This document shows, one piece after another, positions 1-19,723 of a stretch of DNA of 20,550 nucleotides. A program made the translations under genes and the position numbers. This DNA comes from a virus, in the IMG/VR virus record IMGVR_UViG_3300032236_000732, positions 1 to 20,550 of that record; one strand, written 5' to 3'. Every line of letters starts with the position of its first letter. Within the stretch, counting starts at the first letter, position 1. The notes beneath the pieces were generated by a model. That model was given only the letters and a program-made list of their open reading frames with translations, had not been told where the DNA came from and ran no database searches.

Positions 1-2298
1 ATCAATTGGATATACGCCTGAGTGATGATAATCTCTAGCAGTAATTTCAATATTTCCAGATCCATTACCATTAGCGTGGAAGTCGAATTGATTACCATAG
101 CTCAGAGCTTTGGCTCCAAGTGCAATGTTCCCACCGCCCGATGGCATATTTGATCCAGCCCAAGATCCTATGAATGTATTACATACGTTATAAGATCCAT
201 ATCCAGCATAAGCTCCCAATCCAACCGAATCAGTTGGTGAGTGACCGACTGTTTGAACTTCTTGCCCGGCTCTACTTCCTACGAAAGTTAATCTAACGCC
301 AGTATCTGCTACGTTGGCACTTTGATATCCGGCAGAGTATCCAATAAAAGTAGCATCTGTACTGTTCAATACGCCTTGAAGAGCGCCATTTCCTATAATT
401 GTTGCATTATTTGCTGAGGTTAAATTAATACCAGCGCCAGCACCATATACTTCGGCACTAGATAATCCTTTGGTATTACTTAAAAGTTTATTTGTGATAT
501 CATAAGTAAATCCAGCGACATATGTTTGTGTTGTTGCGCTTGTCCAAACTGGGACATTGCCCGAAGATCCACCACTTAAACCGCCAGTCGATACAGGTTG
601 ACCATTCCAATATAAAGCTGTTCCACTAGCATATATTTTGCTTGTAGTAGTTCCGGGAACACCGCTATTTACAGTTATACCACCACTAGTTGTTATTGCA
701 TTAAAAATTTGAAGATCAGTTGCAGTTACTGGCATAAGTGGAATTTGATATGATGTTCCATTTATTCTTGTTTCAAGTAGTTTAGTTATACCGCTAGGAG
801 CTGTTGAAGATGTAGATTGTTCACCCGTTCCATCAGATTTTCCAACCTTAGCAGTAGATGATCCAATAACAAGTTGACTATTTTGGTTAGCTTGTGCGCC
901 ATAACCAATAACAATAGCGCCATTAATAGCTCCTGAACCACTAGCTACGTCAGCACTAGATCCAACAAATATATTACCTGATCCAGTTGTAACTGTATAT
1001 CCAGCATATATGCCTAAAGCGGTGTTGTAGTTTGCATTCAATCCACTGCTAAGATACAATGCTTGATATCCTAAAGCTGTGTTATAACTAGCATTATTAT
1101 ATCTTAAAGCGTTTGTTCCAATCGCGGTATTATATGACATTACACCTGTAGTAGAACTTAACATCGAATAATTTCCGATAGCCGTATTACCTGCTCCAGT
1201 TGTAATATTATTTCCAGCTTGGAAACCTATGCCAACATTATCCCCACCAGTTGAGACTGTTGCTAAAGCTAAACATCCATATGCCACCGCACCACCGCCT
1301 GTAATATACTGACCAGCCCTATCGCCGATTATTGTATTATAGCTTTGCGTAGTTACAGCAGCCCCGGCAGTTTTACCTATGATAATATTGGCACTACCAG
1401 TTGTTATAGCAGATCCAGCATACCATCCAATACATGTATTTGCGGTACATCCTGTTGCATTTGCCATCGCGTTACTACCAATAGCCGTATTATAACTAAG
1501 ATTAGTTGCGCCAGCTTGAGTCATTGAACCCAAAGCGCTAGGTCCAAAAGCTACGTTGCCCCAGTTTGTTCCACTTCCGGCGATATTCTGAGAAACTCTA
1601 CCAAGGGTATCTATTGAAATTAAAGCAGTGCCAAAAGAATCTTGCACTTCTAAAATATTGGCAGATTGAGAAGTTGTGGCTTGGGCAATAAAAACTTTAT
1701 CAGTTGCACTTTTAGCTTGGACTTGTAGAGTTGCGTTGGGTGAGAAATTACCTGATGTCGATCCATCTCCAATATATATTTTTTTGGACAACATATCTCC
1801 AACGATTGTTTCTCCAATGTTTAATTTATTGCTTGAGTTTGCATTTCCATATAATGGAGGATTTGTATTTCTTGTTCTTATCTCAATATTGCCAGTTCCA
1901 TAGACTCTAAATCCAGCATTATATCCGATATTTACATTATACGAACCTGACGCTTGGTATCCTGCTTGATATCCAAGAGCAGTATTATAATCATATGTAG
2001 AATTAGAATCTTCACCACCAGCACCGTATCCAATACAAACATTATATGTACCAGAACTATTTCTAAAAGCTCTGTATCCAGCAACTGTATTATAACTCCC
2101 ACTAACAGCAACTCCATTTGCATTATTTGCCGCCTGAAAACCGATAGCGGTATTATAATTACCCGGAAAAGATGCCCCAGCACTATTTCCAATAAAAATA
2201 TTTGATGTTCCACTTGCGGAATTACCAGCGGTTGGGCCTATAAATATAGGTAGTGTACCTGATGCAGAGTTACCGGCACTATTTCCAATAAAAATATC
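1..2298 (-). repeat. About 27 YadA-head-like beta-roll repeats in the giant fibre
   Basis: Each unit is about 14-20 residues and centres on N[TI]xIGxxAG, for example DIFIGNSAGNSASGT, NTALGYQAGYQASGS and NTCIGWYAGSAITTG. Three blocks are visible: 1881-2298 (8 units), about 855-1557 (14 units) and 1-408 (about 6 units). The first block closes with GNIEI and NKLNIG, and the second with QLVIGSS. The third reaches GNIEI at the window edge, so its closing segment should lie just beyond base 1. The spacing and motif match the left-handed beta-roll of YadA/Hep_Hag adhesin heads and of phage fibres. Similarity is judged by eye. Confidence 0.8.
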
Positions 2299-4647
2299 TG
2301 TGGTTGCAGGAGATATTCTACCACTTCCTGTATTTATATCGCCTATAATAGTACCAGTCGAGAATATTAATTGATTAAGATTTCCTGTTCCGCCCATTGA
2401 TACTGTAATTGATCCACTGCCATTCGTTACACTTATCCCGCTACCAGCCGTTAAAGTATTAAGGGCATAGCTTGTACCACTACCAATTAAAAGTTGACCA
2501 TTAGATGGGGCTGTTGATAAGTTAGTACCACCACTTGCAATCGGAACAATTCCAGTTATAAACTGGTTATTCATAACCTGTTGAGCGGTGAAAATAATTG
2601 ATGGAGCCGATGGAACAGTTGGGCTTGTTTGAGAAGGAATATATGAGACAACAACGCTTGTACTGTTGCTAGCAGAGGCAAGTTGAATATAATCACCTGA
2701 GTTATAAGTATATACATAATTACAACTACCTGCAAGTGCACCGCTTACACCAGTGAAATGTGATCCGGGAACTGTGAATATAGTATTACTTCCTGAAACA
2801 TCAACCCCATTTTTTCTTAGCCAAACGTCAACGTCTTGAAGTTGGATTGCACCATTTAAGAATTGAATGGAATAAGTAAGACTATATGTTCCGGGGTAAT
2901 TAAAAAGAACAGCATTTCCACCAGAAATACTTACGCCTTTAGCTTCAGAAACCTGTCCAAGACCTAATATTACAACTCCAGTAGTTGAGGGATATGTTTG
3001 ATTTGTAATATCATAAAATGACCCATAATATCCCAGTGCGCCACCAGCACCAGATGGACCCATTGGTCCCCCGCTTACGGGAAACCCATTAAACCACAAA
3101 GTATTTCCACTAGCATATAAATTATTATTAGTTGTAACTGCCGGAATACCCGCAGTGAGTGTAATTCCACTAGATACTACAAGATTTGTAAGATTGCCCG
3201 ATCCGCCAAGAGAAATATTTGTAGTGGCCGATCCATTAAAGTTTGCTGTTGTTCCAGTTATACCAGAATTATATGTGAGTGGATTTACAGTAACACCGCT
3301 GACATACCCGCCATTGAATTGCAGGTAAGAGCCGCTGTTATAAAGTTTATTTGTTGTTACGGCTGGAACGCCCGTTGATAAAGTTATCCCACTTGCAATC
3401 GTAGCCGTAATACCAGATACTGCACCACCTGAATCCACAATAAATAATGGAGATCCAGCGCCAGTGTCGATTTCAAATACGTTTACGCTTTGAGTATTAT
3501 TAGCTCTAAGTATTAAACCCTTTGTTGATCCCGTAACTGCTGTAATATCAACAGTACCAGTTGGAGAGGATGTACCGATACCTAATTTACCAGCACTGTC
3601 AATAGCACCAAATGTGATAGATGGATTACTCCACTCTATTAAGTTTGCAGATTGACTAGTCTGACCCTTGACCACTATTCCTTTCGTAGTTGTGGATAAA
3701 GTATCTACTTCTAACTGATTAAGAGATCCGGTTCCACCAATGTGCATTCTACCAGACGCATCAATAATTGTCAATGTTCCACTCGAATAATTTTGAGTTT
3801 CGAGAATATTACTTGTTGAACCAGATGCTGGTCGCAGCACAAGAGTTTTATATCCACTTGGGGCAGCGATCTCGACCTTGCCAGAATACTGACCAAAAGT
3901 TTGACTTGTGCCAATTCCAATAAAACCATCATACTCACCAAATTTAATAAGACCCGAAGCATCAACTTCAATAGAAGACATGCCCGATATATCATTAACA
4001 GAGAAGATAGTTCCAGAAGCAAGTCCATCAGAAATAGAGAATAATTGACCAGCGGTGGATTCAAAAGAAATAGTAGAATCGCTAAGAATATTCATATTCA
4101 TACCGCTAGCGCTTATGCCAGTTCCGGTGAAAACTACTCTATTATTAGCCGAATCAAATTTTAATGAGTTACTATATGAAATTCCACTTGCCGAACTCCA
4201 AATAGTTAAATATCCAGATGCTCCACCAGAAAGTGTTACTGGACCAACATTTATACCTGTTCCATTCCAATATAACGAATTACCGCTGGAATACAAGGTA
4301 TTTGCTGTTGAAGCTGGAACGCCACTTAGAAGTTGTATACCGCTTGAATATATAGCAGAAATGCCAGATTGTTGACTAGAGGGTGAAACATAATAAATAA
4401 TACCACTAGACACATTTTGCAGTTCTATCAAATTCGCCGTTTGCGAAGTCGAGGCTCTTATAATTAATCCTTTATCACCAGAGCTTGCAGTGTTAATATC
4501 TAATGTACCACTAGGAGTTTGAGAATTAATTCCAACCTTATTTGTAGAGTCTACTACAATAAATAGAGGATCGGCGACCCCAGAAGGAGCGCCGTCCCCA
4601 GCATAAAAGTCCGTACCGCTTGGAAGAACAAAAGGTTTAAAAGCCAT
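1..4647 (-). CDS. Giant modular tail-fibre protein, 3' end outside the window
   Basis: The frame is open from an ATG at 4647 to base 1 (1549 codons, no stop read), so the C-terminus is missing. A ribosome site, AGAGGATAGGATAGC, precedes the ATG. Modules in order: N-terminal segments of the common fibre form VGINSQTPSGTLDI (about residue 40) and LGIGTSSPTGTVDI; four copies of a segment ending LYxSGNxLYWNG; a collagen-like GPMGPSGAG (about 526-535); a jelly-roll-like domain containing DVWLRKNG (about 536-670); an IASGGTNLS linker (about 703); then three blocks of YadA-head-like beta-roll repeats (784-920, 1031-1265, 1414-end). Such proteins form trimeric fibres that bind the host surface. Many related fibres end in a self-cleaving S74 chaperone domain, and whether this one does cannot be seen. 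Fibre role is well supported; receptor and exact tail position are unknown. Confidence 0.88.
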   Translation of the reverse strand, partial: MAFKPFVLPSGTDFYAGDGAPSGVADPLFIVVDSTNKVGINSQTPSGTLDINTASSGDKGLIIRASTSQTANLIELQNVSSGIIYYVSPSSQQSGISAIYSSGIQLLSGVPASTANTLYSSGNSLYWNGTGINVGPVTLSGGASGYLTIWSSASGISYSNSLKFDSANNRVVFTGTGISASGMNMNILSDSTISFESTAGQLFSISDGLASGTIFSVNDISGMSSIEVDASGLIKFGEYDGFIGIGTSQTFGQYSGKVEIAAPSGYKTLVLRPASGSTSNILETQNYSSGTLTIIDASGRMHIGGTGSLNQLEVDTLSTTTKGIVVKGQTSQSANLIEWSNPSITFGAIDSAGKLGIGTSSPTGTVDITAVTGSTKGLILRANNTQSVNVFEIDTGAGSPLFIVDSGGAVSGITATIASGITLSTGVPAVTTNKLYNSGSYLQFNGGYVSGVTVNPLTYNSGITGTTANFNGSATTNISLGGSGNLTNLVVSSGITLTAGIPAVTTNNNLYASGNTLWFNGFPVSGGPMGPSGAGGALGYYGSFYDITNQTYPSTTGVVILGLGQVSEAKGVSISGGNAVLFNYPGTYSLTYSIQFLNGAIQLQDVDVWLRKNGVDVSGSNTIFTVPGSHFTGVSGALAGSCNYVYTYNSGDYIQLASASNSTSVVVSYIPSQTSPTVPSAPSIIFTAQQVMNNQFITGIVPIASGGTNLSTAPSNGQLLIGSGTSYALNTLTAGSGISVTNGSGSITVSMGGTGNLNQLIFSTGTIIGDINTGSGRISPATTDIFIGNSAGNSASGTLPIFIGPTAGNSASGTSNIFIGNSAGASFPGNYNTAIGFQAANNANGVAVSGSYNTVAGYRAFRNSSGTYNVCIGYGAGGEDSNSTYDYNTALGYQAGYQASGSYNVNIGYNAGFRVYGTGNIEIRTRNTNPPLYGNANSSNKLNIGETIVGDMLSKKIYIGDGSTSGNFSPNATLQVQAKSATDKVFIAQATTSQSANILEVQDSFGTALISIDTLGRVSQNIAGSGTNWGNVAFGPSALGSMTQAGATNLSYNTAIGSNAMANATGCTANTCIGWYAGSAITTGSANIIIGKTAGAAVTTQSYNTIIGDRAGQYITGGGAVAYGCLALATVSTGGDNVGIGFQAGNNITTGAGNTAIGNYSMLSSTTGVMSYNTAIGTNALRYNNASYNTALGYQALYLSSGLNANYNTALGIYAGYTVTTGSGNIFVGSSADVASGSGAINGAIVIGYGAQANQNSQLVIGSSTAKVGKSDGTGEQSTSSTAPSGITKLLETRINGTSYQIPLMPVTATDLQIFNAITTSGGITVNSGVPGTTTSKIYASGTALYWNGQPVSTGGLSGGSSGNVPVWTSATTQTYVAGFTYDITNKLLSNTKGLSSAEVYGAGAGINLTSANNATIIGNGALQGVLNSTDATFIGYSAGYQSANVADTGVRLTFVGSRAGQEVQTVGHSPTDSVGLGAYAGYGSYNVCNTFIGSWAGSNMPSGGGNIALGAKALSYGNQFDFHANGNGSGNIEITARDYHHSGVYPID

Positions 4648-4670: not shown

Positions 4671-7472
4671 TTAGACTGACATTGATGTTCTAGTAAATCT
4701 GGTATATACGCTTCCACCTGTGTTACTTGTTCCTTGTACAAGAACATTACCACCAGAAATTGTAGCACTTAAGTTTAGTAATGATTGAGTACCACTTGTA
4801 TAAATTTGTCCATATTCTGTTACGAATGCAGTTCCAAAACCATCGTGAATAACAAGAATTTCGGAAATCTGAGAAATTGTTGGTGTTAATGTTGCGGCAT
4901 TCTTTGTCTGAACAAGATATTTGCCACTTCTATATGTTCCTGTTGGGAATTGGTCAATCGTAGTGACCGATGCTCCAACAGTTACGTCTCCAGAAGAGGT
5001 CACTGTTGTATATGCTAGTGTTAGTAAATTATTTGTGGTATCATATTTTAAATCGTTGTCATATGTAATATTGCCACCAGTATTCCAAACGGCCAAAGTG
5101 CCTGATGATCCTGATCCAGTTACACCAGAAGCAGAGCTTGCAGGAGTATATCCAAGAGCGCCAGTGATGTCTGGGGTTGTTAGCGTGCGATAGAATGGAG
5201 CAGTAGAAGTGCCATTTGATACTAAGAATGATCCACTAGCAACAGCGGCAAGTTTACTGATTGTGGTAGTGGCAGATGCATATAGCAAATCACCAACAGT
5301 ATAGGATGATAGATTTGTACCACCCTGAGCAACTGCCAATGTGCCAGCGGTAATTTGAGCAGCAGATAGATTAGGAATGTCGCCTGAAGCTACAGCCGTA
5401 TTGTTAATTACGCGACCGTATCCATCTATACCAACTTTAACAAATGATGTTCCAGTTGAGCCTTGGGAAACAGTAGCAAGATTAATATATGGAGCTTGTA
5501 ATGTACCAGTTACGGAAATAGTATTAGTTGCGCCCGCTGTAACGGCTGTGACTTGGGCGGTTGTATATCCGGTTCCAATTACAGTACCGTTCCAAACACC
5601 TGTCGCGATTGTGCCAACTTGTTGTAAACTAGAAATATTAACGGCAGATCCAAGAGTGGTGGATGATAGCACAGTAGTGCCGTTAATCATATAAGTCTTA
5701 CCAGTAGCTAGACTCATATTTTCAGTCGATGACCAGTATGGAGTTCCTGCGTTATAATTGTATGTGAATTTAACGCCTAAGCCGTTACCGGCTGTACCAC
5801 TACCAAGAATAAGACCAGCGCCCGTAAGTGGAGCGCCAACCGCTCCAACGCCAGATCCGAGATTTAAGAATAGATCTGAGGTAGAGATTTGAGTTGAGTT
5901 AACAGTAACGGTTTGACCGGCAACATAAAGATTACCAGCGATGTATGTATTAGATGTAGCCGATCCAATATTAATCGTGCCGGTTGCACTATTAGTATTA
6001 ATATTTACTACTCCACTAGCAGTTGATCCTGTTGAAATGTTTGTGGTAGTAGCAGCTCCGAATGCATTTACAGTAGTAGCATTCGTGTTAAGTAGATTAG
6101 CTGTGGTTTGATTTGTGGCAATTGTTCCGCCATTGGCGTTAATAGTTCCAGTTGCTGTTAAAATATTAACGGCAGTAGTGCCACCAATATTAACTGTGCC
6201 GCCAGCGGCCCCAATATTAGTTGTAGTTGCTGCCCCAAACGCATTAACTGTTGTGGCGGTTGTGTTTAATAGATTAGCGGTAGTTTGATTTGTTGCTATT
6301 GTACCGTTATTGGCATTAATAGTGCCAGTAGCAGTTAGGTTATTAACATTTGTTGTGCCAGCACCGCCAATATTGACAGTTGTTGCAGTAGTATTAAAAA
6401 GATTAGCGGTTGTTTGAGTTGTGGCTATTGTGCCACCATTAGCATTCAAAGTTCCTGTTGCAGTTATATTATTAGCTTGAATATTTCCAGTTGTACTCAA
6501 GCCGTTAATGCTAACTGTACCATTTAAATTAATAGTACCACCAGCAGAGCCAATTGTTGTGGTGGTTGCAGAACCACCCATTGTGATCGTAGTCGGAGTG
6601 CTTAGTAATGTATACGATGCAGAAGAACCATCTAATGATCCTATTGTTTTAACAGCACCAGATAACCAAATATTTGGATTTGATCCGCCACCAAGTACAA
6701 TTGAGCCACCGGCAGCTCCACCAATATACACGTTCGTAGCATTGGTGTTGTATAAATATCCAGCAGATGCCGTTGTTGAAATTGTTCCACCATTAACAGC
6801 AATATTACCAGCAAATACCCCGGTTGAACTAGCGCTACCTATATTTATAGTTGTAGCGTTTGCAGTAAATAAGTTTGCTGTCGTTTGATTGGTTGCTATA
6901 GTACCACCGTTTGCATTAATTGTGCCTGTAGCGGTAATTACATTACCAGTGGTAGTGCCTTGTAAAATAATAAACCCAGCACCATTACCAATATTAGTTT
7001 GAGTAGAAGCGCCGAATGCATTAACTGTGGTTGCAGTGGTATTTGCTAAGTTAAAAGTAGTTTGGTTTGTAGCTATCGTTCCGCCGTTAGCGTTGATAGT
7101 TCCTGTAGCAGTTAAGATATTGACTGCTGTTGTACCACCGATATTAACGGTTCCATTTGCCGCACCTAAATTTGTGGTTGTTGATGCTTGACCAATATTA
7201 AGAGTCGTAGCAGTCGTATTAAATAGGTTCGCCGTAGTCTGAGATGTTGTTAGCGATCCACCATTTATCGCGACATTTCCAGAAAAAGTACCGGCAACAC
7301 CAGAGTGATTACCAGCACTGTCGATTCTAGAAATAATATTACCAAGATAATCTTGCCATTGTTGAAGATCGGCTGATTGACCAGATGCGCCCTGAATTGT
7401 AGCTACAATTTGATTACCAGTTGTTGGTAAAACTGTTATACTATTAGGGACTCTAAAAACACTATATGCCAT
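4671..7472 (-). CDS. Repeat-rich tail-fibre protein, 933 residues
   Basis: A structural fibre protein rich in Thr, Asn, Gly and Ala, with almost no charge in its centre. Residues about 60-490 are tandem modules built on TATGTINANGGTIATNQTT, followed by NLLNTTATTVNAFGAATTTN and VNIGGTTAVNIL, consistent with a long beta-structured shaft. Residues about 690-790 hold LAVAQGGTNLSS and TGALGYTPASS, linkers typical of phage tail fibres. The last 96 residues are a separate domain (TYRSGKYLVQ ... SEILVIHDG ... TEYGQIYTS) shared with the two upstream genes. The start at 7472 follows GTATATAAAGGGGTAAAAA, an adequate ribosome site 11 bases after the previous stop. It lies 23 bases upstream of the giant fibre and is probably co-translated with it. 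Specific position on the virion is not known. Confidence 0.86.
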   Translation of the reverse strand: MAYSVFRVPNSITVLPTTGNQIVATIQGASGQSADLQQWQDYLGNIISRIDSAGNHSGVAGTFSGNVAINGGSLTTSQTTANLFNTTATTLNIGQASTTTNLGAANGTVNIGGTTAVNILTATGTINANGGTIATNQTTFNLANTTATTVNAFGASTQTNIGNGAGFIILQGTTTGNVITATGTINANGGTIATNQTTANLFTANATTINIGSASSTGVFAGNIAVNGGTISTTASAGYLYNTNATNVYIGGAAGGSIVLGGGSNPNIWLSGAVKTIGSLDGSSASYTLLSTPTTITMGGSATTTTIGSAGGTINLNGTVSINGLSTTGNIQANNITATGTLNANGGTIATTQTTANLFNTTATTVNIGGAGTTNVNNLTATGTINANNGTIATNQTTANLLNTTATTVNAFGAATTTNIGAAGGTVNIGGTTAVNILTATGTINANGGTIATNQTTANLLNTNATTVNAFGAATTTNISTGSTASGVVNINTNSATGTINIGSATSNTYIAGNLYVAGQTVTVNSTQISTSDLFLNLGSGVGAVGAPLTGAGLILGSGTAGNGLGVKFTYNYNAGTPYWSSTENMSLATGKTYMINGTTVLSSTTLGSAVNISSLQQVGTIATGVWNGTVIGTGYTTAQVTAVTAGATNTISVTGTLQAPYINLATVSQGSTGTSFVKVGIDGYGRVINNTAVASGDIPNLSAAQITAGTLAVAQGGTNLSSYTVGDLLYASATTTISKLAAVASGSFLVSNGTSTAPFYRTLTTPDITGALGYTPASSASGVTGSGSSGTLAVWNTGGNITYDNDLKYDTTNNLLTLAYTTVTSSGDVTVGASVTTIDQFPTGTYRSGKYLVQTKNAATLTPTISQISEILVIHDGFGTAFVTEYGQIYTSGTQSLLNLSATISGGNVLVQGTSNTGGSVYTRFTRTSMSV
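6046..7260 (-). repeat. Protein repeats with diverged codons in the 933-residue fibre
   Basis: Five close copies of TATGTINANGGTIAT lie at about 7074-7118, 6895-6940, 6423-6468, 6294-6339 and 6119-6163. Two weaker copies are nearby (GNVAINGGSLTTSQTTANL and GNIAVNGGTISTT). The peptide is nearly constant but the DNA is not. Between the first two copies about 10 of 14 aligned codons differ, all at the third position. Confidence 0.8.
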
Positions 7473-7483
7473 TTTTTACCCCT

Positions 7484-8170
7484 TTATATACTTATTTTAT
7501 ATAGATTTATATTTGTTCCAGAGTTAGCAGCTATCATTGAAAGATTAATTATTCCACTAACAGATGAAGCATCTACACTAATTAAAGGCTGAGACGAAGT
7601 GTAGAGTTGCCCGTATACTGTTATATACACATTATTTGACTTTGCTATGATTAAAGATTCCTCAATTTGGGTGTCTGAATTATACTGAGCTTTTATTAGA
7701 TATTTTATAGCATTACCAGATGTGGAGTCTACAATAGTTGAATTTGTAGAATTTAAAGCGTATGAGACACTTAATGGGGTTTTTACATCTGAAGCAGTTA
7801 AGTTTTGGCCTGAAAAAGACTTGTCACCATTTGATACTAAATATTGTCCACTGGAAGGCGAAGCTGATGAGTTTAGATAGACCGAAGTTTTAGCAGGATA
7901 GGAAATAAATACTGTTGATGAACTTGAGAGATTAATTAAACTTCCGCTAGAGGAACTTTCAAATACGAGATCCCTACTAAGGGTTCCGCTTATGCTATTG
8001 TAAGTACCTTCTCCAGTTTCCCAGTTTGTGCCATTTACCAGAGTATAGTAAGTTTTTATATTGCCCGTCCCAAGAGCGCTGAAGTCCTGAAAACCGCTAT
8101 ACGCACTGCCGAGAGTTAAAATTCCGGTCCCATTTGTATTTACATTTACTTTTACCCTGTCTTTTAGCAT
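7484..8170 (-). CDS. Tail-fibre protein with common N-terminal adapter domain
   Basis: A 228-residue protein starting at ATG 8170. A longer reading would need TTG at 8176, and the ATG is better placed after TTAGGATTTGAGG. The first about 95 residues (LKDRVKVNVNTNGTGILTLG, then GFQDFSALGTGN, TYYTLVNGTNWETGEGTY, SRDLVFESS, FISYPA) match from memory an N-terminal domain very common in phage tail-fibre and receptor-binding proteins, thought to attach the fibre to the tail. The middle has a GQYLVSNGDKSFSG linker. The last 83 residues are the C-terminal domain shared with both neighbours (KYLIKAQ ... ESLIIA ... VYGQLYTSS). It begins 9 bases after the upstream gene's stop, so coupled translation is likely. 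Fibre/adapter role is likely; the partner is unknown. Confidence 0.82.
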   Translation of the reverse strand: MLKDRVKVNVNTNGTGILTLGSAYSGFQDFSALGTGNIKTYYTLVNGTNWETGEGTYNSISGTLSRDLVFESSSSGSLINLSSSSTVFISYPAKTSVYLNSSASPSSGQYLVSNGDKSFSGQNLTASDVKTPLSVSYALNSTNSTIVDSTSGNAIKYLIKAQYNSDTQIEESLIIAKSNNVYITVYGQLYTSSQPLISVDASSVSGIINLSMIAANSGTNINLYKISI

Positions 8171-8179
8171 CCTCAAATC

Positions 8180-8758
8180 CTAATTTATAATAGTTTTAAA
8201 TAGTTTAATATCAGTATTATTATTTGTTGCCTGTGCATATAAATTAATATATGATCCTGAAATAGAGGTACTAAAATTTGCAAGCAGAGAACTTGTATAA
8301 ACAATTCCATATTGAGTCATGTAGGAATCACCGTTATTAGCAACTAGCAAAATTTCAGATGATTGTATGTCAGTGCTGTGTTTTGCCTTTATTATATATT
8401 TTATACAATCTCCTGAAGATATGGGAGATGAGTCCAATAAAGTACTATTAGTTGTTGAAAGAGTGCCTGATACAGTTCCATCTAAAGTAACGGCTCCCAA
8501 AGTAGATATGGAGCCGCTACCAGAATATGAACTGATGCCAGATGGTATCCAGCCACTTGTTGACCAAGCCAAAACTTGTCCACTTGCTGGAGTGATATTT
8601 AATATGGGATTGCCCTGCAATGAGGAAGCATTCCACTGAGCAGTTCCACTTCCAACTTTCGATGGCGATAATGATACAATCCAATTTGGGTTTACGTAAT
8701 ATCCTGTAGTATATACAAGATTATTTAAACTTATATTATTTCTTTGGATTGTTGGCAT
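8180..8758 (-). CDS. Small fibre-associated structural protein
   Basis: A 192-residue protein whose N-terminal half is not assigned to a family. Residues about 53-72 carry ITPASGQVLAWSTSGWIPSG, a linker of the kind found between domains of phage fibres, and the last 86 residues are the domain shared with the two downstream genes (CIKYIIKAK ... SEILLVANNGDSYMTQYG ... VYTSS). There are no membrane segments or signal peptide. Its ATG overlaps the stop of the 49-residue gene upstream (TAATG), with AGGGAAG as ribosome site, so the two are coupled. Together with its neighbours it probably builds one adhesion apparatus. A structural role is likely, and a precise function cannot be given. Confidence 0.75.
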   Translation of the reverse strand: MPTIQRNNISLNNLVYTTGYYVNPNWIVSLSPSKVGSGTAQWNASSLQGNPILNITPASGQVLAWSTSGWIPSGISSYSGSGSISTLGAVTLDGTVSGTLSTTNSTLLDSSPISSGDCIKYIIKAKHSTDIQSSEILLVANNGDSYMTQYGIVYTSSLLANFSTSISGSYINLYAQATNNNTDIKLFKTIIN

Positions 8759-9437: not shown

Positions 9438-10439
9438 TTAGAAGCTAGCGGCAAGAACGCGACGATTGTCAAGTACGCCGAATCCAACTTCAGCCCAACC
9501 GTAATAACCTTGACGTTGGTTACGGTGAAGAGCTTCGTCTTCGAAAATTTCAACTTCGCGACGAACTGGCATAACAAAGCTATCACGATTGTTAAGGTCA
9601 AGACCTACAACAAGTTCAACTTTGCTTGAGCCTAGTGAGCCACCAAGGTCATTTAGGAAGAAGTTTTGGTATTCTTGGCTATCACCTAATTCGAATAGAT
9701 CTGTTAGGTTAACACCGAAGATTCTTGTCATTGGAGCGCCATCGCTAGCAGCTTGGTAAACTTCACGGCGTGAAATTTCGTCCAATTGATCAATACCCCA
9801 GTTGCGAATATCTTCGATAGCTTCTGGTGATAGGTAAAGATCTGTAAGACGACCAGTTGCTGTTACGGAGTTACCACCACCGTTACGACGCATAACTGTC
9901 TTACATAGAGAAATTAAACGCTTGGTGAATTGACCTTGAGCAGCGTCACCATCATAAACCAAGATGTTACGGTCAACCGTAGCAGCAAGGATAGTGTGCC
10001 AACCGTCATCATTTAGCTTCTTAACGAAACCAGCTTCAAGAACTTGCATAGCACGAGCTACGATGTCCCAACGAGCTTCGCGAGCATAACGAAGTAGGAA
10101 GTCGATGCTGTTGGTGATGCCGTAGGTGTTAACCATGACGTAATCGCCTTCAACGTGCTTCTCAGGAATACGACCGTGACCCGGATTGGTATAAGCGGTG
10201 TAGTCGCGCTCAGTACCCGGAGCTAGAAGGTCAAGAGGGAATTCAGGTTGTGAACCCGGTTCAATGACCATTTTCTCATAGATACCTGTAACGACATCAC
10301 CATACATGATGCCCTTACGTAGTGGTAGTTCTAGAGCTTTAGCGATTTCTCTTTGTGCATCAAGAGCTACAGATTTATCTGAGCTACCTGAGCGTGTTAA
10401 TAGATTAATAAAATCTTGACTTGGACGTTCTAGTGACAT
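9438..10439 (-). CDS. Major capsid protein
   Basis: A 333-residue protein in the expected place: after portal, protease-scaffold and decoration genes, and before a strong terminator. Its length and character (acidic N-terminal helix RPSQDFINLLTRSG, mixed alpha/beta body with RYAREARWDIVARAMQVLEA, and a C-terminal VEIFEDEALHRNQRQGYYGW strand region) fit an HK97-fold capsid subunit. I assign it mainly from context and overall look, not from a diagnostic motif. The ribosome site is TAGGAG, 9 bases before the ATG. Codon choice is unlike the fibre genes: about 24 of 26 Arg codons are CGT or CGC and only two are AGA, as expected for the most highly made protein of the phage. Processing by the upstream protease at the N-terminus is plausible but not visible. 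Confidence 0.85.
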   Translation of the reverse strand: MSLERPSQDFINLLTRSGSSDKSVALDAQREIAKALELPLRKGIMYGDVVTGIYEKMVIEPGSQPEFPLDLLAPGTERDYTAYTNPGHGRIPEKHVEGDYVMVNTYGITNSIDFLLRYAREARWDIVARAMQVLEAGFVKKLNDDGWHTILAATVDRNILVYDGDAAQGQFTKRLISLCKTVMRRNGGGNSVTATGRLTDLYLSPEAIEDIRNWGIDQLDEISRREVYQAASDGAPMTRIFGVNLTDLFELGDSQEYQNFFLNDLGGSLGSSKVELVVGLDLNNRDSFVMPVRREVEIFEDEALHRNQRQGYYGWAEVGFGVLDNRRVLAASF

Positions 10440-10466: not shown

Positions 10467-10958
10467 TTATGGAAGGTTAATTTCGACTTTGGCGTAACCA
10501 TCAGCATCTTTGCTTGATAGGAAGCGACCAACAGGTTGAGCGCCAGCATCTAGTGTCAAAGCTCTAGTTGATGTAGAAATCAAACCACTGTCTGCAAGAT
10601 ATGCAAAGTTACCGGCAATTGGAAATCCTGTTGGGTGAATTTTGTTTGTTACAACATAGCCCTTGCGTAGAATTGTAACCTTACCACCCTTTTGAATTTC
10701 ATTCTTGTGCCAGTTAATGTGTTGACGGGTTAGGTCAAGATTAACCATGTCATTTAGAAGAATACCAACTGGAACTAGACCAGAAGGATTAGAAGCGTAT
10801 GTAATTACGTTTAATGATGAATCCATTGCAGCGCCTGATGGTGATGTACCTGAAGCAATACCTGTAGCATGAACTGCTACGCCACCACGTTCTGCAACTT
10901 CATTCATGAAGAAACTAACGTCTGTTTGGAATTCGAAACGATCTGATTTTAAAGCCAT
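10467..10958 (-). CDS. Putative head decoration protein
   Basis: A 163-residue protein directly upstream of the capsid gene and downstream of the protease-scaffold gene, the usual site for a capsid-stabilising decoration protein. It has no membrane segment or catalytic motif. The sequence has a small-barrel look, with Gly-rich turns (RGGVAVHATGIASGTSPSG), GGKVTILRKGYVVTN, and an ending VGRFLSSKDADGYAKVEINL that recalls decoration proteins of other phages. The start at 10958 follows AAAGGAG, a strong ribosome site. Codons are biased toward those of the capsid gene, in line with high expression. An alternative is a head-fibre base or a second minor capsid protein. Confidence 0.68.
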   Translation of the reverse strand: MALKSDRFEFQTDVSFFMNEVAERGGVAVHATGIASGTSPSGAAMDSSLNVITYASNPSGLVPVGILLNDMVNLDLTRQHINWHKNEIQKGGKVTILRKGYVVTNKIHPTGFPIAGNFAYLADSGLISTSTRALTLDAGAQPVGRFLSSKDADGYAKVEINLP

Positions 10959-10978: not shown

Positions 10979-11692
10979 TTACTTAATATTAGCAGTTGAT
11001 TTTAGAACTTGAGAACTGAACCATTCGCTTGCAAAAGATCTGATTGATTCTTCTTCTGCGGAGTCCACCATTGGAATTTGATTAGGAGAAGCCTCTGCTG
11101 ACTCAAGAACAGAAGCATCTGCTTCATTAGCGTCAGTTTCTTCTTCAGCTTTTCCGACTTTCATCTTGTAGTTACCATCTGGCTTGCTTCTAGGATATAG
11201 ATCGTCGCCACTTGGTGAATACTTAGGTGCGTCAGGTGTTTGCATTGGTAGAGAGTTTGTTTTAACTTTCTTAATAGCTGCAATAACAGCTTCAAAAGCC
11301 TCGTCGGCCAATGCTTCGAATTGAGCAAGACTTTCTTGAACGTCGTCGCCATTTAATCCGGCTTCGGCTAAAGATGCCTTTCTCTTTTCCATCATTTTTT
11401 CTTTTTTCATTTTCTTTAATTCGTCTTCAGCATCAGCCTTAGCTTTCTTAGCAGATTCAGCTTCGTCTTTTGCCTTTTTGGCTTCTTCTTCGGCCTTAAC
11501 TTTAGCCTTCTTAGCTTCTTCAGCTTCTTCTTTGGCTTTCTTGGCTTCTTCTTCTGCCTTGACTTTCATTTTTTCTTTTTCTTCTTCGGCATCTTTTACC
11601 TTGGCATCAGCTTCGTCCTTGGCCTTTTTGGCTTCGTCTTCGGCTTTCTTAGCTTCGGCAAGTTCAGCTTTCAAAAGTTCTAATTCATTCAT
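10979..11692 (-). CDS. Nested scaffold protein from an internal start
   Basis: ATG at 11692, codon 264 of the protease gene and in the same frame, is preceded by GAGGAG with a 6-base spacer, the best ribosome site in this gene. Translation from here gives 237 residues: exactly the coiled coil beginning MNELELLKAELAEAKK plus the acidic tail, without the protease domain. Lambda makes scaffold Nu3 from inside protease gene C in this way, so the arrangement has a known precedent. Scaffold is needed in many more copies than protease, which the two starts would provide. The boundary between the domains falling at this ATG supports the call. It has not been shown that both products are made. Confidence 0.7.
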   Translation of the reverse strand: MNELELLKAELAEAKKAEDEAKKAKDEADAKVKDAEEEKEKMKVKAEEEAKKAKEEAEEAKKAKVKAEEEAKKAKDEAESAKKAKADAEDELKKMKKEKMMEKRKASLAEAGLNGDDVQESLAQFEALADEAFEAVIAAIKKVKTNSLPMQTPDAPKYSPSGDDLYPRSKPDGNYKMKVGKAEEETDANEADASVLESAEASPNQIPMVDSAEEESIRSFASEWFSSQVLKSTANIK

Positions 11693-12481
11693 TTCGATCT
11701 CCTCAGCTTGTGATTCACTAAAGTTAATATTTTTTTTGTTAGAGTAGTTTAAAATAACACTACGAGGATTTGCAGGTTTCTCTACTAATCCTACACCGGA
11801 AAATGAAAAACCGCGTAAAAGTCTTCCAACTTTATATCCATCGTATTCTCCATTTCCACCGTATGCTCTTAAATGCTTGGTTAGAAATGCTGATGATTCT
11901 TCGCGTTTAACAATTTTTTGATTGCCTTTAACGTCGATCATGGCATAATCAAAAGCAGGAAAAAGACATTCCATAGAAACATGCCATTTTTTACCCTCTT
12001 CGATATCTGCAATAATTTTATCCATTCTTGCTTTTAGCTTCTTATCTGTCCAACTTGTATATAAGACAGCGCCAGTAACAATATCAAATGCTGAAGGCAC
12101 TTGAGACATATCGTTAAAATCTGGCATAATATTACCACCGTCATCCATTGCATAACAACTTACCATATGACCAATGATATCTTTCTCATCGTGCATATAA
12201 TTAAATTGTTTATCGACTGGACTTGTTCTAGCCTTCCAAGTTTCAACTGGATCAAAAACATCATCGTTTTTATTCCAGCCAACACTAGCAAGTATAGATT
12301 TTACATAATAAAGATCAGTTGGCGCATTAGAAACTTCTGCAATAGCTTTTATTGCTTTAGCTTGGTTAACTTCTACCTCAGTAGGGGTATATGGAATAGC
12401 TTCGGCGCAAAAGGCAATAGAATTACTATTTGCTACCAAGTCTCCAATACCATCTTTTGCTTCTGCTTTAAATACATGCAT
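10979..12481 (-). CDS. Prohead protease fused to scaffold protein
   Basis: Residues about 1-250 are a phage prohead protease of the herpesvirus-assemblin-like group (T4 gp21 and relatives). The likely nucleophile is S169 in WHVSMECLF and the likely catalytic His is H97 in NYMHDEKDIIGH. SFSGVGLVEKPANPRSVI (about 227-243) is typical of the end of this domain. Residues 264 to about 372 are a long Lys/Glu/Ala coiled coil with heptad-like KKAKEEAEEAKKAK repeats, and the tail (373-500) is acidic and probably disordered, as in scaffolds. The protease cleaves scaffold and capsid inside the prohead, and scaffold guides shell assembly. GAGG lies 11 bases before the ATG. A second, better ribosome site inside the gene points to separate production of the scaffold part. 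Confidence 0.87.
   Translation of the reverse strand: MHVFKAEAKDGIGDLVANSNSIAFCAEAIPYTPTEVEVNQAKAIKAIAEVSNAPTDLYYVKSILASVGWNKNDDVFDPVETWKARTSPVDKQFNYMHDEKDIIGHMVSCYAMDDGGNIMPDFNDMSQVPSAFDIVTGAVLYTSWTDKKLKARMDKIIADIEEGKKWHVSMECLFPAFDYAMIDVKGNQKIVKREESSAFLTKHLRAYGGNGEYDGYKVGRLLRGFSFSGVGLVEKPANPRSVILNYSNKKNINFSESQAEEIEMNELELLKAELAEAKKAEDEAKKAKDEADAKVKDAEEEKEKMKVKAEEEAKKAKEEAEEAKKAKVKAEEEAKKAKDEAESAKKAKADAEDELKKMKKEKMMEKRKASLAEAGLNGDDVQESLAQFEALADEAFEAVIAAIKKVKTNSLPMQTPDAPKYSPSGDDLYPRSKPDGNYKMKVGKAEEETDANEADASVLESAEASPNQIPMVDSAEEESIRSFASEWFSSQVLKSTANIK
11693..11704 (-). promoter_or_regulatory. Internal ribosome binding site for scaffold
   Basis: On the minus strand GAGGAGATCGAA precedes ATG 11692. 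In the full-length protein the same bases encode EEIE, so the site lies within coding sequence. It decides the nested scaffold start. Confidence 0.72.
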
Positions 12482-12511: not shown

Positions 12512-14641
12512 TTAGTCTGACATTTCTTCAAGTTCTAATGAATCAACATAGACTGAGGCATATATATATTTCATTTCATCTACTGTGGGTTTTCTAGATT
12601 TTATATACACAAACTCGCTCACCTGCGCGTCAACTTTGCCTAGAAATTCAGCGGATGGTTTTCCATTTTTATCAATTAACTCTTTAATTATCTCAGGAGT
12701 TAATTCAATAAAAGGTTCAATATTAGTAAGTAAACATAGCTTAAAATGCTCAAGTTGATCAAATTCAGCCTTTGTTAAAGATCTTACATTTTTCTTTTTA
12801 TAAAAATCCAACATCATAGGAGTTACTTCTTCTGCTATTGATTTTTGAACATCATATGCCCATAATGTAGCAGCAGTCTCACCTATTGTTTTTGTCTTTC
12901 TTTTTATTTTATCTTTATTGCCAGAAGGTCTTCCGCCTTGAGGTTTTCCATCTACAGATTTTGGAGCATCTGGAATTGGATTTCCTCCCCCGATTGGCGG
13001 TTTTGCCGCAGGAGGCGTTGGAATTTTTCTCTTAGGTAAATCTAACTCATCATGATAATATTCATCTGCTAATCCATCTTTAGTTACTAGAACTTTAGCA
13101 ACATCGTTTCTAACATTTGGATTATGATATGGACTTGCCTTCATTGGTGTTGATATATCTGATCTTCTAGATTGCTCTTCTCTTCTAACTCTTAGTCTTT
13201 CAATTTCAGGAATTTCTCCAAATCTCTCAAGAATAGTTTGATCTGAAAGAATTCCGCGATCTGCAAGATTAACCAATAATTGTTTTTCAGCAGACTCATC
13301 TGAAAGAATAATATTGTCAAATCTAATTTGGGCAGGAAGTTTAAACCCCATCGCCTTTTGTATATGCTTGATTTCTTTATTCCAGAATTGAGTTAATAAC
13401 ATACGTCCATATTCAAGTCGCTCAATTAGGGTTTTTAATGAGACGTAATTATCTGCATAACTTCCGCCAGAAGTAGCCCCAGCTAAACTAGGAGGAATTC
13501 CCAATCCTGCATAAATACTTGTAAGTACAGGCTCGTATTTTTCTTTTCCAAGAAATTTATATGCATCAGAGGAGCTTTCTTTAAATGATAATTCTGGACC
13601 CCAAATTAAGTCCATAGTACCACCACCAGTGTTAGAGGCGATAATATCTCTAAGTTTATTAATAACATCCTTTTTAGGAATAATCTTATGGTCTAGACTG
13701 CCCACGGTCCATAAACGAATTTGTGAAATCGCACCATCAAGTGCTGCTAGGTCGGCAAGTTTCATCTTTTCTAGCATAATAAGATCATCAAGAATAGCGT
13801 ATAACATAGGATTAGCCCAAACTAACCAGTCGTCTTTTTTATAATAGAAGACTTCGATTGTTTCGGGATCAATTCTAATTTGTCTTTTACCTTGTTTGAT
13901 CTGAGCTTGAATATCAGGTGGTAATTTAGAAAAGGTTTGCTTGCCACTCATATCAGCAGCCGTGAATGTATCATATGTTGTTTTAGATAGGTTCATAACA
14001 TAGATAGGTTCGCCTAAAAACATACCATTATAATAATTAAGAACATCTATAGTCAACGGGTTTAAGAAGTCGTATTGCCAAGGGATTTCTCTCTTGACAT
14101 ATTTTCTATCTACAATTTCCATATCAGCAGCCACTGATTTTCTTAATTCATCTTCTCTGGCGGCATTAATTTTAGCCGTACTTCTTTTTACAATTACATT
14201 TCCAGTTCTGTATAGATAATTCAAGAATCGTTCAGACTTTTCTTGACCTTTTACTTGTTTAAACCAAGCCTTATAAAATCTTTCAATAGACTTATTAGGG
14301 TGAACAATATCCACACCCTGAGATCCAAAGTCGCCCATCAAATCAATTACATTTCTGATAATACCAACTCTATCATAGGCATCCATAGCCATTTTGAGAA
14401 TGCGCTTTTGACGAGTAGGAACAGCTTCTTCGGGGCGGAAACGATAATAATCATTTCTAGTTATACTTGTACGTACAGAGCGATTAGGTTCGATATCAAT
14501 ATATGAACGATATGAATATCCTAAAGCCTTTTCTCTCCCTATTGCGCTATTTTCATTATATGCATCAGCAGCTTCTGAGAAAGCCTGTTGCTTAGAAGAG
14601 TCATCGCCCCACGTTTTATAAAGTTCGATATCTTGCGACAT
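12512..14641 (-). CDS. Portal protein
   Basis: A 709-residue protein placed between terL and the prohead protease, the usual site for portal. The body has features typical of portals: RVGIIRNVIDLMGDFGSQGV (about 92-111) near the N-terminal wing; mixed alpha/beta segments with RIDPETIEVFYY; LYAILDDLIMLEKMKLADLAALDGA (about 285-310) for the long stem-like helix; YAGLGIPPSLAG; and NYVSLKTLIERLEYGRMLLTQFW before the C-terminal wing. After about residue 530 comes a Pro/Gly/Lys-rich linker (KPPIGGGNPIPDAPKS) and an extra helical domain to the end, longer than many portals. Twelve copies normally form the vertex ring that passes DNA and binds terminase. GGAG is 11 bases from the ATG, a slightly long spacer. 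Confidence 0.88.
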   Translation of the reverse strand: MSQDIELYKTWGDDSSKQQAFSEAADAYNENSAIGREKALGYSYRSYIDIEPNRSVRTSITRNDYYRFRPEEAVPTRQKRILKMAMDAYDRVGIIRNVIDLMGDFGSQGVDIVHPNKSIERFYKAWFKQVKGQEKSERFLNYLYRTGNVIVKRSTAKINAAREDELRKSVAADMEIVDRKYVKREIPWQYDFLNPLTIDVLNYYNGMFLGEPIYVMNLSKTTYDTFTAADMSGKQTFSKLPPDIQAQIKQGKRQIRIDPETIEVFYYKKDDWLVWANPMLYAILDDLIMLEKMKLADLAALDGAISQIRLWTVGSLDHKIIPKKDVINKLRDIIASNTGGGTMDLIWGPELSFKESSSDAYKFLGKEKYEPVLTSIYAGLGIPPSLAGATSGGSYADNYVSLKTLIERLEYGRMLLTQFWNKEIKHIQKAMGFKLPAQIRFDNIILSDESAEKQLLVNLADRGILSDQTILERFGEIPEIERLRVRREEQSRRSDISTPMKASPYHNPNVRNDVAKVLVTKDGLADEYYHDELDLPKRKIPTPPAAKPPIGGGNPIPDAPKSVDGKPQGGRPSGNKDKIKRKTKTIGETAATLWAYDVQKSIAEEVTPMMLDFYKKKNVRSLTKAEFDQLEHFKLCLLTNIEPFIELTPEIIKELIDKNGKPSAEFLGKVDAQVSEFVYIKSRKPTVDEMKYIYASVYVDSLELEEMSD

Positions 14642-17165: not shown

Positions 17166-17427
17166 TTTTTTGTATCAGTGCTAAAAATAAACTCTGGAAG
17201 TGTACTTCCTTGCCTGTAATGTCTTTATGACAACTCTTACAAAGGGTAATCCCGTTTCCGGGATCGAACCTTAGCGTACCCGCATTGGCCCAAGTCATAA
17301 TGTGATGCACTTCTAGGCTCCTTCGGATACGGGATTTGCATAATTGACACGTATATTTGTCACGCTTTAAAACTTTTGACCTAAATTGCTTGTAATTGGG
17401 GTCTTGATAGTCTCGCTTCATCGACAT
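17149..17427 (-). CDS. Small HNH endonuclease near terminase
   Basis: A 92-residue HNH protein: CQLC zinc pair (about 28-31), LEVHHIMTWANAG (about 38-50) with the catalytic His, NGITLCKSCHKDI (about 59-71) with the second zinc pair and final His. Small HNH proteins coded next to terminase genes are a known part of the packaging machinery in several phages (HK97 gp74 is the example I recall), where they help terminase cut DNA. Position between the probable small terminase and terL fits this. A free-standing homing endonuclease is the alternative. The gene overlaps gmd by 47 bases and the ERCC4 gene by 17. ATG 17421 is an alternative start two codons in. The last codons run through A7 and A8 stretches. 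Confidence 0.87.
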   Translation of the reverse strand: MSMKRDYQDPNYKQFRSKVLKRDKYTCQLCKSRIRRSLEVHHIMTWANAGTLRFDPGNGITLCKSCHKDITGKEVHFQSLFLALIQKNGKKT

Positions 17428-18418
17428 CGTTTTTAACCATTCTTTCTACAAGTGTATGAAACGATACTTCAGGTTGCCACTTTAGTTTTTCTTTCGCTTT
17501 CTTCGGGCTTCCAAGTAAAAATTCAACCTCAGCAGGACGGTAAAAGTTAGGATCAACCACAACGTGTCGTTGCCATTCCAATCCGTAAATAGAAAATGCC
17601 TCATGTAAAAACTCCTTAATAGTATGAGTTTCACCAGTAGCTACCACATAATCGTCCGCTACATTTTGTTGAAGCATGAGCCACATAGCTTTGACATAAT
17701 CTTGCGCATGGCCCCAATCCCTACGAGCATCCAAATTACCCAAACGCAACTTAGGAAATTTTTTATCTTGATCACTTGCTATAAATTCCCCCAGCCACTT
17801 AGTAATCTTTCTTGTAACAAAATTTTCCCCTCTTCGTTCACTCTCATGATTAAAAAGAATACCAGAGCATCCAAATATATTATAGGAGTCTCGATAATTT
17901 CTAACTAGATGATGTCCGGCCAGCTTTGCGATGGCATATGGTGACTGCGGCATAAATGGAGTATCTTCATTTTGAAATTTAAGTGGATTTTCACCAAAGT
18001 CATCATAGACGGTCGTGTAATTTTTCCCAAACATTTCGCTAGAAGATGCTTGATAAAACTTGGTTCCTGTGCTACAATTGCGTATAGCTTCCAAGCAGTT
18101 CAGAACCCCGCGAGCAGTGATGTCCCATGTCGTTCCGGGTTGATCAAAAGAAGTTTTAACGTGGGATTGTGCGCCCAAGTTATAGAACTCGTCAACTTCA
18201 TAGTCATTTAATATTCGATAAAGGAACCCCTCATCTGTGAGATCACCTTCGATAAGATTAAATCTTTTGTTTGCTACGCAATTAGCAAGTCTAGAAAAGT
18301 TAGGTTGGGAGGTTCTTCTGTAGATCCCCAGCACTTCATATTTCTTAGATAAAAGTAATTCGGCCAAATAACTGCCGTCTTGTCCTGTGATGCCGGTTAC
18401 TACTGCGCGTTTCTTCAT
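17381..18418 (-). CDS. gmd: GDP-mannose 4,6-dehydratase
   Basis: A 345-residue, full-length NAD(P)-dependent short-chain dehydratase that converts GDP-D-mannose to GDP-4-keto-6-deoxy-D-mannose, precursor of fucose, rhamnose and related surface sugars. Cofactor loop TGITGQDG (8-15), YNLGAQSHVKTSFDQP (79-94), catalytic SSSE (125-128), Tyr161 and Lys165 in SPYAIAK, and the family motifs LFNHESERRGENFVTRKI and LGNLDARRDWGHA are all present. Between the SSE motif and SPYAIAK it has about a dozen more residues than I recall for bacterial enzymes. GGAAGG precedes the ATG and overlaps the stop of the upstream gene. Such genes are known in aquatic phages, where they may alter host surface sugars, but a place between terminase genes is unusual. 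Intact catalytic residues suggest activity. Confidence 0.96.
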   Translation of the reverse strand: MKKRAVVTGITGQDGSYLAELLLSKKYEVLGIYRRTSQPNFSRLANCVANKRFNLIEGDLTDEGFLYRILNDYEVDEFYNLGAQSHVKTSFDQPGTTWDITARGVLNCLEAIRNCSTGTKFYQASSSEMFGKNYTTVYDDFGENPLKFQNEDTPFMPQSPYAIAKLAGHHLVRNYRDSYNIFGCSGILFNHESERRGENFVTRKITKWLGEFIASDQDKKFPKLRLGNLDARRDWGHAQDYVKAMWLMLQQNVADDYVVATGETHTIKEFLHEAFSIYGLEWQRHVVVDPNFYRPAEVEFLLGSPKKAKEKLKWQPEVSFHTLVERMVKNDVDEARLSRPQLQAI

Positions 18419-18420
18419 TT

Positions 18421-19221
18421 TTATCCTTCCACGGTTTCCGGGGTTAAAAAGGGTTGATCGGTTATGCCATCTTCATAAGTGTGGGCTTCACCAAGTCTTT
18501 GTCGTTCAGCGTCCATTGCGAGTCGCATTTTTTCCATGTCAGTTCCAGCGGCTCTGCGAAATTCGGGGTCTAAAATAATTTTCTTAATTAAAGATGCAAA
18601 TGTTGTTTTGCTATCTTCAATAGCTTTAATACGTTGTTCGCGAGTACCTTTAAGATCTTTAATCATTGCGGATTTTTTAGTTTGCAGATCTTTATAATCG
18701 CGAGAGATTGCTTCTTGTGAGGCGCGCAATACTGCACATTGCCTTTCAAGATTAGTAATCATGTCCCAATCAATTGAATCCTTGTCTTGGTTTTTTTCTT
18801 CTATTATAACCTGTTCTAGATTAGAAAGCATTTTTATATTGTCATTTTGCGATTTCAAACTTCTATTCATTAATATCTCAAGTTTAATAGTATCAACAAT
18901 TTGAATTTCTTCAGTATGAAATACATCGTCTCTAAATTGTGACCACATCTTCTTCCAATGGAAGACGAACATTTCCAGCTCGTCTTCATTGAATTGACTC
19001 TCAAGATCATACCAATAGGCTTTACTTTTGAGTTCATTTAGGGCTTCTACTTCTTTGCGGTCACTGGCATTAATTCCAATATTTTTCTTAATCCATAAAA
19101 GTACAGACTTGGGATCACGATTAAGGACCGTCGCAATATTTTCATACGACATATCTTTAATATTTTCTTTAATGTACGATTGTTCATTAAGATCAAGTCT
19201 GCCAGTACGCATATTAGCCAT
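18421..19221 (-). CDS. Probable terminase small subunit (HTH plus coiled coil)
   Basis: A 266-residue protein with an N-terminal helix-turn-helix (about 10-55: LNEQSYIKENIKDMSYENIA, then VLNRDPKSVLLWIKKNIG), a long charged helical middle with coiled-coil character (about 110-205), and a C-terminal tail after ILDPEFRRAAGTDMEKMRL. Small terminases share this plan: HTH that recognises the packaging start site, coiled-coil oligomer core, C-terminal segment for terL. Position at the head of the packaging cluster supports the role. The start at 19221 follows TTGGAG and overlaps the stop of the sigma-like gene by 8 bases (ATGGCTAA). I did not recognise a specific family; a phage transcription regulator is the alternative. 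Confidence 0.6.
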   Translation of the reverse strand: MANMRTGRLDLNEQSYIKENIKDMSYENIATVLNRDPKSVLLWIKKNIGINASDRKEVEALNELKSKAYWYDLESQFNEDELEMFVFHWKKMWSQFRDDVFHTEEIQIVDTIKLEILMNRSLKSQNDNIKMLSNLEQVIIEEKNQDKDSIDWDMITNLERQCAVLRASQEAISRDYKDLQTKKSAMIKDLKGTREQRIKAIEDSKTTFASLIKKIILDPEFRRAAGTDMEKMRLAMDAERQRLGEAHTYEDGITDQPFLTPETVEG

Positions 19222-19723
19222 AAAATTGCTCCAAAATTAATTTTAAATGGTTTAACAAATTTACTTTCTTAGTTTTTGTTAAAGTTTGATCATTCTTAAA
19301 TCTCAGAAAATCGCTTCGCATATTAGCAGGTAAGTGAAGATCAATATATTCGCATAGTTCGCGCTCTTCTAGCGATGTGGAACACTCTGAATTGACAACA
19401 AGATACTTAATATTGTCAATGCTAGATGCGTCAAGGAGTTTCTTTTTGCCGTTTTGGATTTCTTGGGCTTTGCCTTCGTCCTGACGATAGTAGTTATCGC
19501 GTTTGAAGTTCTTTAATCTATTTTTTATATGAATAGAAAGAAAGTTTTCGAGTGGTCTAACACCATCATAACGATTCATAGCTTCCATCCCAATTATAAA
19601 AGCCTCCTGAATAATATCATCAGCCTCATAATTGGGAAATGTAAACTTATTCGCTAGGCGACTCGACACTCGCGTTATCGTTGCCACCACTTGTTCCTCT
19701 GTCATATTCTGCGGAATTTTCAT
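19214..19723 (-). CDS. Sigma-70 region-2-like transcription factor
   Basis: A 169-residue protein. Residues about 20-80 resemble sigma-70 region 2: RLANKFTFPNYEADDIIQEA is the core-binding helix with the usual DDIIQEAF form, followed by AMNRYDG, FLSIHIKNRLKNFKRD and NYYR for promoter melting. The rest (about 105-169) is weakly like region 4 but shows no clear helix-turn-helix, as in short phage late sigma factors such as T4 gp55. It would direct host RNA polymerase to phage promoters, possibly those of this structural operon, which it helps lead. Ribosome site AAGGAAAG lies before ATG 19723. Its 5' end overlaps the upstream 69-residue gene by 77 bases in another frame. Confidence 0.75.
   Translation of the reverse strand: MKIPQNMTEEQVVATITRVSSRLANKFTFPNYEADDIIQEAFIIGMEAMNRYDGVRPLENFLSIHIKNRLKNFKRDNYYRQDEGKAQEIQNGKKKLLDASSIDNIKYLVVNSECSTSLEERELCEYIDLHLPANMRSDFLRFKNDQTLTKTKKVNLLNHLKLILEQFYG

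Follow-up and report, generated by a model that had tools for sequence, protein, structure and literature searches.

A putative scaffold nested in a probable head protease gene, with its own conserved ribosome site, in a large family of phages

The gene described here lies in a 20,550-base stretch of DNA that constitutes an IMG/VR virus record (hereafter the window), and it is best explained as one gene, read in one frame, that gives two proteins: a protease-scaffold fusion and a free scaffold started from inside the gene. We put the probability of this reading at about 0.9. The evolutionary evidence makes initiation at the internal ATG at 11692 very probable, close to certain, and the product of this start is in all likelihood a scaffold. 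The predicted scaffold is encoded, in the same frame, by the 3' part of the protease gene, with a start and a ribosome site of its own, as judged from sequence and conservation. An earlier note on this DNA had proposed such a nested scaffold, parallel to lambda C/Nu3, and conservation among relatives strongly supports that proposal. The features are collected in Table 1.

Table 1. Positions of the protease-scaffold gene, its parts and its neighbours in the window, and of its homologues in cultured phages (locus named before the colon)
Feature	Position	Strand	Basis or remark
Full-length protease-scaffold gene, 500 aa (500 codons)	10979..12481	(-)	ORF and family coding sequences from IMG/VR loci
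Internal Shine-Dalgarno sequence GAGGAG	11699..11704	(-)	sequence and conservation among relatives
Internal ATG start, Met264 of the fusion product	11690..11692	(-)	sequence and conservation
Nested scaffold frame (predicted), 237 aa	10979..11692	(-)	consensus and model
Ribosome-binding region of the full-length start, TATGAGGTAA	12489..12498	(-)	duplex energy; weaker than the internal site
Modelled folded protease domain, residues 57-244	11750..12313	(-)	invariant columns, AlphaFold models, BFVD structural matches
Variable disordered linker, residues 248-267, holding the internal start	11681..11740	(-)	pLDDT <50 at 248-267
Upstream gene, portal by position	12512..14641	(-)	homologue upstream in all 233 loci compared
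Downstream capsid cement protein	10467..10958	(-)	PF22758 Phage_cement, E 2.9e-5, slightly below the curated threshold; synteny
Major capsid protein	9438..10439	(-)	phrog_2522 major head protein, E 0.0014, weak; synteny
MaeS homologue	L235:12927-13991		internal start codon 201 (GTG)
Stills homologue	L237:1507-2529		internal start codon 184 (ATG)
Slash, Staley and Stahl homologues	L238, L239, L240:1507-2526		internal start codon 183 (ATG)

The minus strand at the junction reads, in frame, GCT GAG GAG ATC GAA ATG AAT (the longer stretch is GCTGAGGAGATCGAAATGAATGAA), with the 6-nt spacer ATCGAA (11698..11693) between GAGGAG and the ATG (11692..11690). The ribosome site and the 6-base spacer claimed in the earlier note can therefore be read directly from the strand, and its placing of this ATG where the protease ends and the coiled coil begins holds within the resolution of the model, in which the protease extends to about residue 244 and the linker covers 248-267, with the Met at 264 and the helix from 267. 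GAG accounts for only 9 of the 60 Glu codons of the window gene, yet both Glu codons at the internal site are GAG, and the calculated pairing with the anti-Shine-Dalgarno sequence is -9.2 kcal/mol at the internal site versus -6.9 kcal/mol at the gene start. Rfam and tRNA scans of the window returned no match.

Three scans of IMG/VR gave at least 233 other loci with a homologue, and matches to the protein family number more than 500, which is a lower bound. Among the matches listed, 234 loci (the window's included) hold 175 distinct coding sequences, 161 of them complete, and the internal ATG preceded by AGGAG or GGAGA is found in all 174 readable non-identical sequences, shortly after the PANP motif with which the protease ends; the remaining sequence (L016) is cut off by the contig end before the junction. 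Loss of the internal ATG or of its Shine-Dalgarno sequence in relatives, which would speak against the proposal, was looked for and not seen. The ribosome site is thus conserved in its core, AGGAG or GGAGA, while the full string GAGGAG is not present in every relative. M264 is an invariant column in an alignment of 47 protein sequences, while the stretch around it is highly variable, and few parts of the protein are less conserved than the flanking linker. The predicted short product measures 205-255 aa in the representatives defined below, and its Met is mostly followed by Ser/Ala-Asp (MSD in 38/65). In three relatives (L017, L019 and L023) an ATG directly abuts AAGGAG (ATG AAA or AAT ATG), giving two close in-frame ATGs, of which only the second has a normal spacer.

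One could argue that Glu/Lys-rich coding produced the internal site by chance, that the fusion alone is made, and that the scaffold is freed by self-cleavage in the linker. The scaffold part is indeed rich in Glu and Lys, and self-cleavage from a scaffold is possible for such proteases, as in HSV UL26 (PMC12474303). We compared 65 representatives, less than 80% identical in the protease domain, with versions in which codons were shuffled within each gene among synonymous positions, so that protein and codon usage were kept. The site stands in 65/65 representatives versus 9.95 +/- 2.8 after shuffling (maximum 19 in 200 shuffles), or about 10 of 65 expected by chance, although the sequences are related and not independent trials, so that these statistics overstate the significance. 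In the same genes, a comparable site precedes 2 of 645 other in-frame ATGs and 13 of 1315 out-of-frame ATGs. The use of two codon phases and the occurrence of the site in distant isolates (see below) do not share the weakness that comes from relatedness. The GGAG core is read as xxG-GAG in 41 representatives (KE, RE, EE, ME, QE) and as GGA-GAx in 24 (GE, GD), and it is therefore the nucleotide signal that has been conserved while the amino acids changed. The phase-0 sequences (GGA-GAx) make up one side of a branch in the protease-domain tree (support 93/90, one change), which indicates that the site stayed in place while its reading phase shifted. At phase-2 sites, where a Glu codon closes the motif, this codon is GAG in 41/41 cases, although GAG makes up 22% of Glu codons in the family genes. 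A chance Shine-Dalgarno sequence in Glu-rich coding is rejected by the shuffles and the codon usage, and an accidental site is very improbable, given its presence in every readable sequence and in distant isolates, in two phases and against codon preference, within a linker that is otherwise so poorly conserved.

The strength of the signal agrees with this. Median anti-Shine-Dalgarno (16S tail) pairing is -8.5 kcal/mol at the internal site, -6.9 kcal/mol at the gene start and -1.5 kcal/mol at other in-frame ATGs; the internal site pairs more strongly than the gene start in 49/65 representatives, and in 55/65 the internal start lies in RNA with less folding than the rest of the gene. A stronger internal site fits the need for more scaffold than protease, of which T4 proheads, with 72 protease and 576 scaffold copies, give an example (PMC9026906).

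By predicted fold and gene position, and not by sequence family, the N-terminal domain would be a head maturation protease. Searches of Pfam, PHROGs, NCBIfam and PDB sequences matched it to no protease family, and PF14550 (Peptidase_S78_2/XkdF) had no match in the window record, in Microcystis phage MaeS or in three long relatives, while the control was matched in B. subtilis. The AlphaFold model has a beta-rich domain at residues 57-244, followed by low confidence at 248-267, and its invariant residues (47 sequences) are H97, H105, S169 (in VSMECLF), H203 and an SGxGLV..PANP motif. Against BFVD, the protease model gave 112 structural matches at E<=0.001, many of them named prohead protease, COG3740 or XkdF, and the first-ranked entry has 354 residues, the same length as the MaeS protein. 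Against PDB (Foldseek), herpesvirus proteases had the highest probabilities (0.84 and 0.80), but with weak E values of 0.18-0.25 (best 0.18). The structural matches thus appear to point to generic prohead proteases and, weakly, to those of herpesviruses. S169 is a candidate for catalysis together with H97 or H105, and perhaps H203; in the profile alignment (hhalign), S169 pairs with the Ser of the MaeS SME motif, and H105, not H97, pairs with a MaeS His. In the model, the scaffold part begins with a single helix (267-373); two short ones reach to 406, and beyond a disordered stretch lies a C-terminal helix (477-497). It has a conserved KRKA..EAG / F..L.DE.FE motif at about 365-405, and the disordered stretch after it is acidic.

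The earlier note had called the protease domain T4-gp21-like, and had set the gene against T4, where protease and scaffold are separate genes. The first claim was not borne out. It would make the N-terminal domain a Peptidase_S77 homologue and the gene a gp21-gp22 fusion, which would be compatible with the internal start, and in both families a His does precede the Ser, with a P(A/S)xP-like motif towards the C-terminus. However, homology is rejected at the sequence level, as hhalign against seven aligned gp21-family proteins gave a probability of 0.2% (E 0.26), and PF03420 (Peptidase_S77) had no match in 26 members of the window family, with T4 gp21 as positive control at 6e-112; those structural matches that carry a name belong to prohead proteases/COG3740 and XkdF-like proteins. 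We therefore find gp21 ancestry hard to credit. The phage group around Slash and MaeS (see below) gave 0.8% (E 0.073) against the gp21 family. As to the second claim, genes 21 and 22 are indeed separate, but the contrast is weaker than stated, since gene 21 has its own internal start, from which a short essential product that is not the scaffold is made (PMC9026906; a note in the T4 record agrees on the internal start). This start is placed at Met45 in the review (PMC9026906) and at codon 23 by the coordinates of the T4 record. T4 itself therefore has internal initiation in its prohead protease gene, and T4 gp21/gp22 resemble the window gene in supplying a head protease and a scaffold and in having an internal start, whereas they differ in the separate genes, in the location of that start near the beginning of the protease and in the lack of detectable profile similarity to the window family.

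The gene order terminase, portal, protease/scaffold gene, cement and major capsid protein was found in 233/233 loci compared, as far as the contigs reach, which gives the gene the position of a prohead protease in the head cluster. The portal is named by position, as Pfam and PHROGs searches with the product of 12512..14641 found no family match. No separate scaffold gene was seen: in the window only the cement gene stands between the protease/scaffold and capsid genes, and the gene order in the relatives' loci shows no other scaffold candidate between portal and capsid genes. From the helix, the position and the absence of another candidate we infer the scaffold role of the short product. It might instead be made as a targeting or regulatory partner and not as the main scaffold, as T4 gp21s may be, and the T4 gene 21 internal start does yield an essential short product that is not a scaffold (PMC9026906). 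But the internal start of T4 gene 21 falls early in the protease, and that of the window gene would release the entire long helix together with the conserved C-terminal helix; with no alternative candidate seen between portal and capsid genes, a mere partner is very unlikely.

Several other genes of the window, all on the (-) strand, were noted. Directly upstream of the terminase large subunit lie an HNH endonuclease (PF01844, 17149-17427) and an ERCC4-type nuclease (PF02732, 16683-17165), and the frame at 17381-18418, adjoining the packaging genes, looks by eye like a GDP-mannose 4,6-dehydratase-type sugar-nucleotide enzyme (TGITGQDGSYLAELLL). A small protein at 19214-19723 has sigma-70 region 2 (PF04542) and may be a phage sigma factor. 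At the other end, an open frame of at least 1549 aa (1-4647) leaves the window; it is Gly/Ser/Thr-rich with repeated 'NTAIG/YNTALG' motifs and by eye is of tail-fibre or adhesin type. It is followed by a 933-aa fibre-like protein (4671-7472) with many near-repeats of the type 'TATGTINANGGTIATNQTTANL', and by two consecutive proteins of 230 and 192 aa (7484-8758) whose ends resemble that of the 933-aa fibre (e.g. 'VYGQLYTS', 'QYGIVYTS', 'EYGQIYTS'), perhaps as a shared C-terminal module.

A tblastn search with the window protein found no match in cultured GenBank phages, and cultured isolates were found by terminase match and synteny. The terminase matches were Microcystis phage MaeS and the Bacillus megaterium phages Slash, Staley, Stahl and Stills, and in all five the gene two after the terminase encodes 339-354 aa with SME and PANP motifs. 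The junction site is present in 5/5 isolates, as AGGAGG-ATG in Slash, Staley and Stahl, AAGGAGG-ATG in Stills and AAGGAGG-GTG in MaeS. In the isolate records inspected the internal starts carry no annotation and the genes are annotated as hypothetical. Profile comparison of the Slash/MaeS proteins with the window family gave a probability of 88% (E 2.8e-6, 153 columns). The Slash/MaeS family is phrog_16389, listed as function unknown, which 7 of 26 window-family members match weakly (best E 0.0013). Thus, the Slashvirus/MaeS gene shares with the window gene its position, the SME and PANP motifs, the helical C-terminus and the internal AGGAGG with ATG or GTG, and differs from it in being shorter; on these sequence features, phrog_16389 is very likely the same kind of nested protease-scaffold.

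With two products from one frame as the preferred reading, we propose the following course of head assembly. Translation from 12481 would give the protease joined through a flexible linker to the scaffold, and translation from 11692 the scaffold alone. The free scaffold, presumably in larger amount, would build the core of the procapsid and organise the capsid protein, and a few fusion molecules would be brought in by the common coiled coil and C-terminal end, so that the protease becomes enclosed. The enclosed protease may then cleave the scaffold and itself, emptying the shell for DNA. The conserved nucleotide signal, its placement at the junction and the position of the gene are observed, and from these we infer that both products are made, in what ratio, and that scaffold cleavage follows.

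Under this reading, a large unannotated family and likewise phrog_16389 would have a head-assembly function and a second product that has been hidden. It also offers a clean case in which an internal start is backed by a signal that changed codon phase in evolution, an approach applicable to every protease/scaffold gene. New here are the family and its breadth, a protease domain that sequence profiles fail to recognise, and the proposed function of phrog_16389; among open-licence papers we found no description of the internal start in this family. We lean slightly towards the view that very abundant and mostly uncultured phages combine a herpesvirus-type protease with a lambda-type, Shine-Dalgarno-driven nested scaffold, and that this combination is ancient and kept across highly diverged lineages, as far as Slash and MaeS, the junction site being conserved while the linker drifts and changes phase.

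The arrangement is already known in kind from lambda, Mu/PaMx73 and herpesviruses. In lambda, the scaffold Nu3 is started within the protease gene C and corresponds, in frame, to the C-terminal portion of its product, gpC, an S49 (ClpP-like) protease. The window gene has the same in-frame nesting in the 3' part of the protease gene, whereas its fold matches other prohead proteases and no sequence similarity to gpC was shown. In herpesviruses, the nested scaffold has a separate gene start and its own transcript, in contrast to the internal Shine-Dalgarno sequence of the window gene. UL26/UL26.5 nevertheless resemble it in the same-frame scaffold 3' of the protease (assemblin), and herpesvirus proteases rank highest, at weak E values, among the named PDB fold matches. 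The fusion-derived VP21 makes up ~10% of the herpesvirus scaffold (PMC12474303), and the roles of lambda C, Nu3 and the portal B have been described (PMC3224144). Mu I/Z and gene 27 of the Mu-like phage PaMx73 have an in-frame scaffold start with a Shine-Dalgarno sequence inside the protease gene, as here, although PaMx73 uses a Val codon, ACGAGGA and a 9-nt spacer (PMC4378225); the searches run found no relatedness of either to the window gene. Placing the scaffold inside the protease gene can hold the ratio of protease to scaffold low, and the present family adds weight to the view that tailed phages and herpesviruses use this solution repeatedly.
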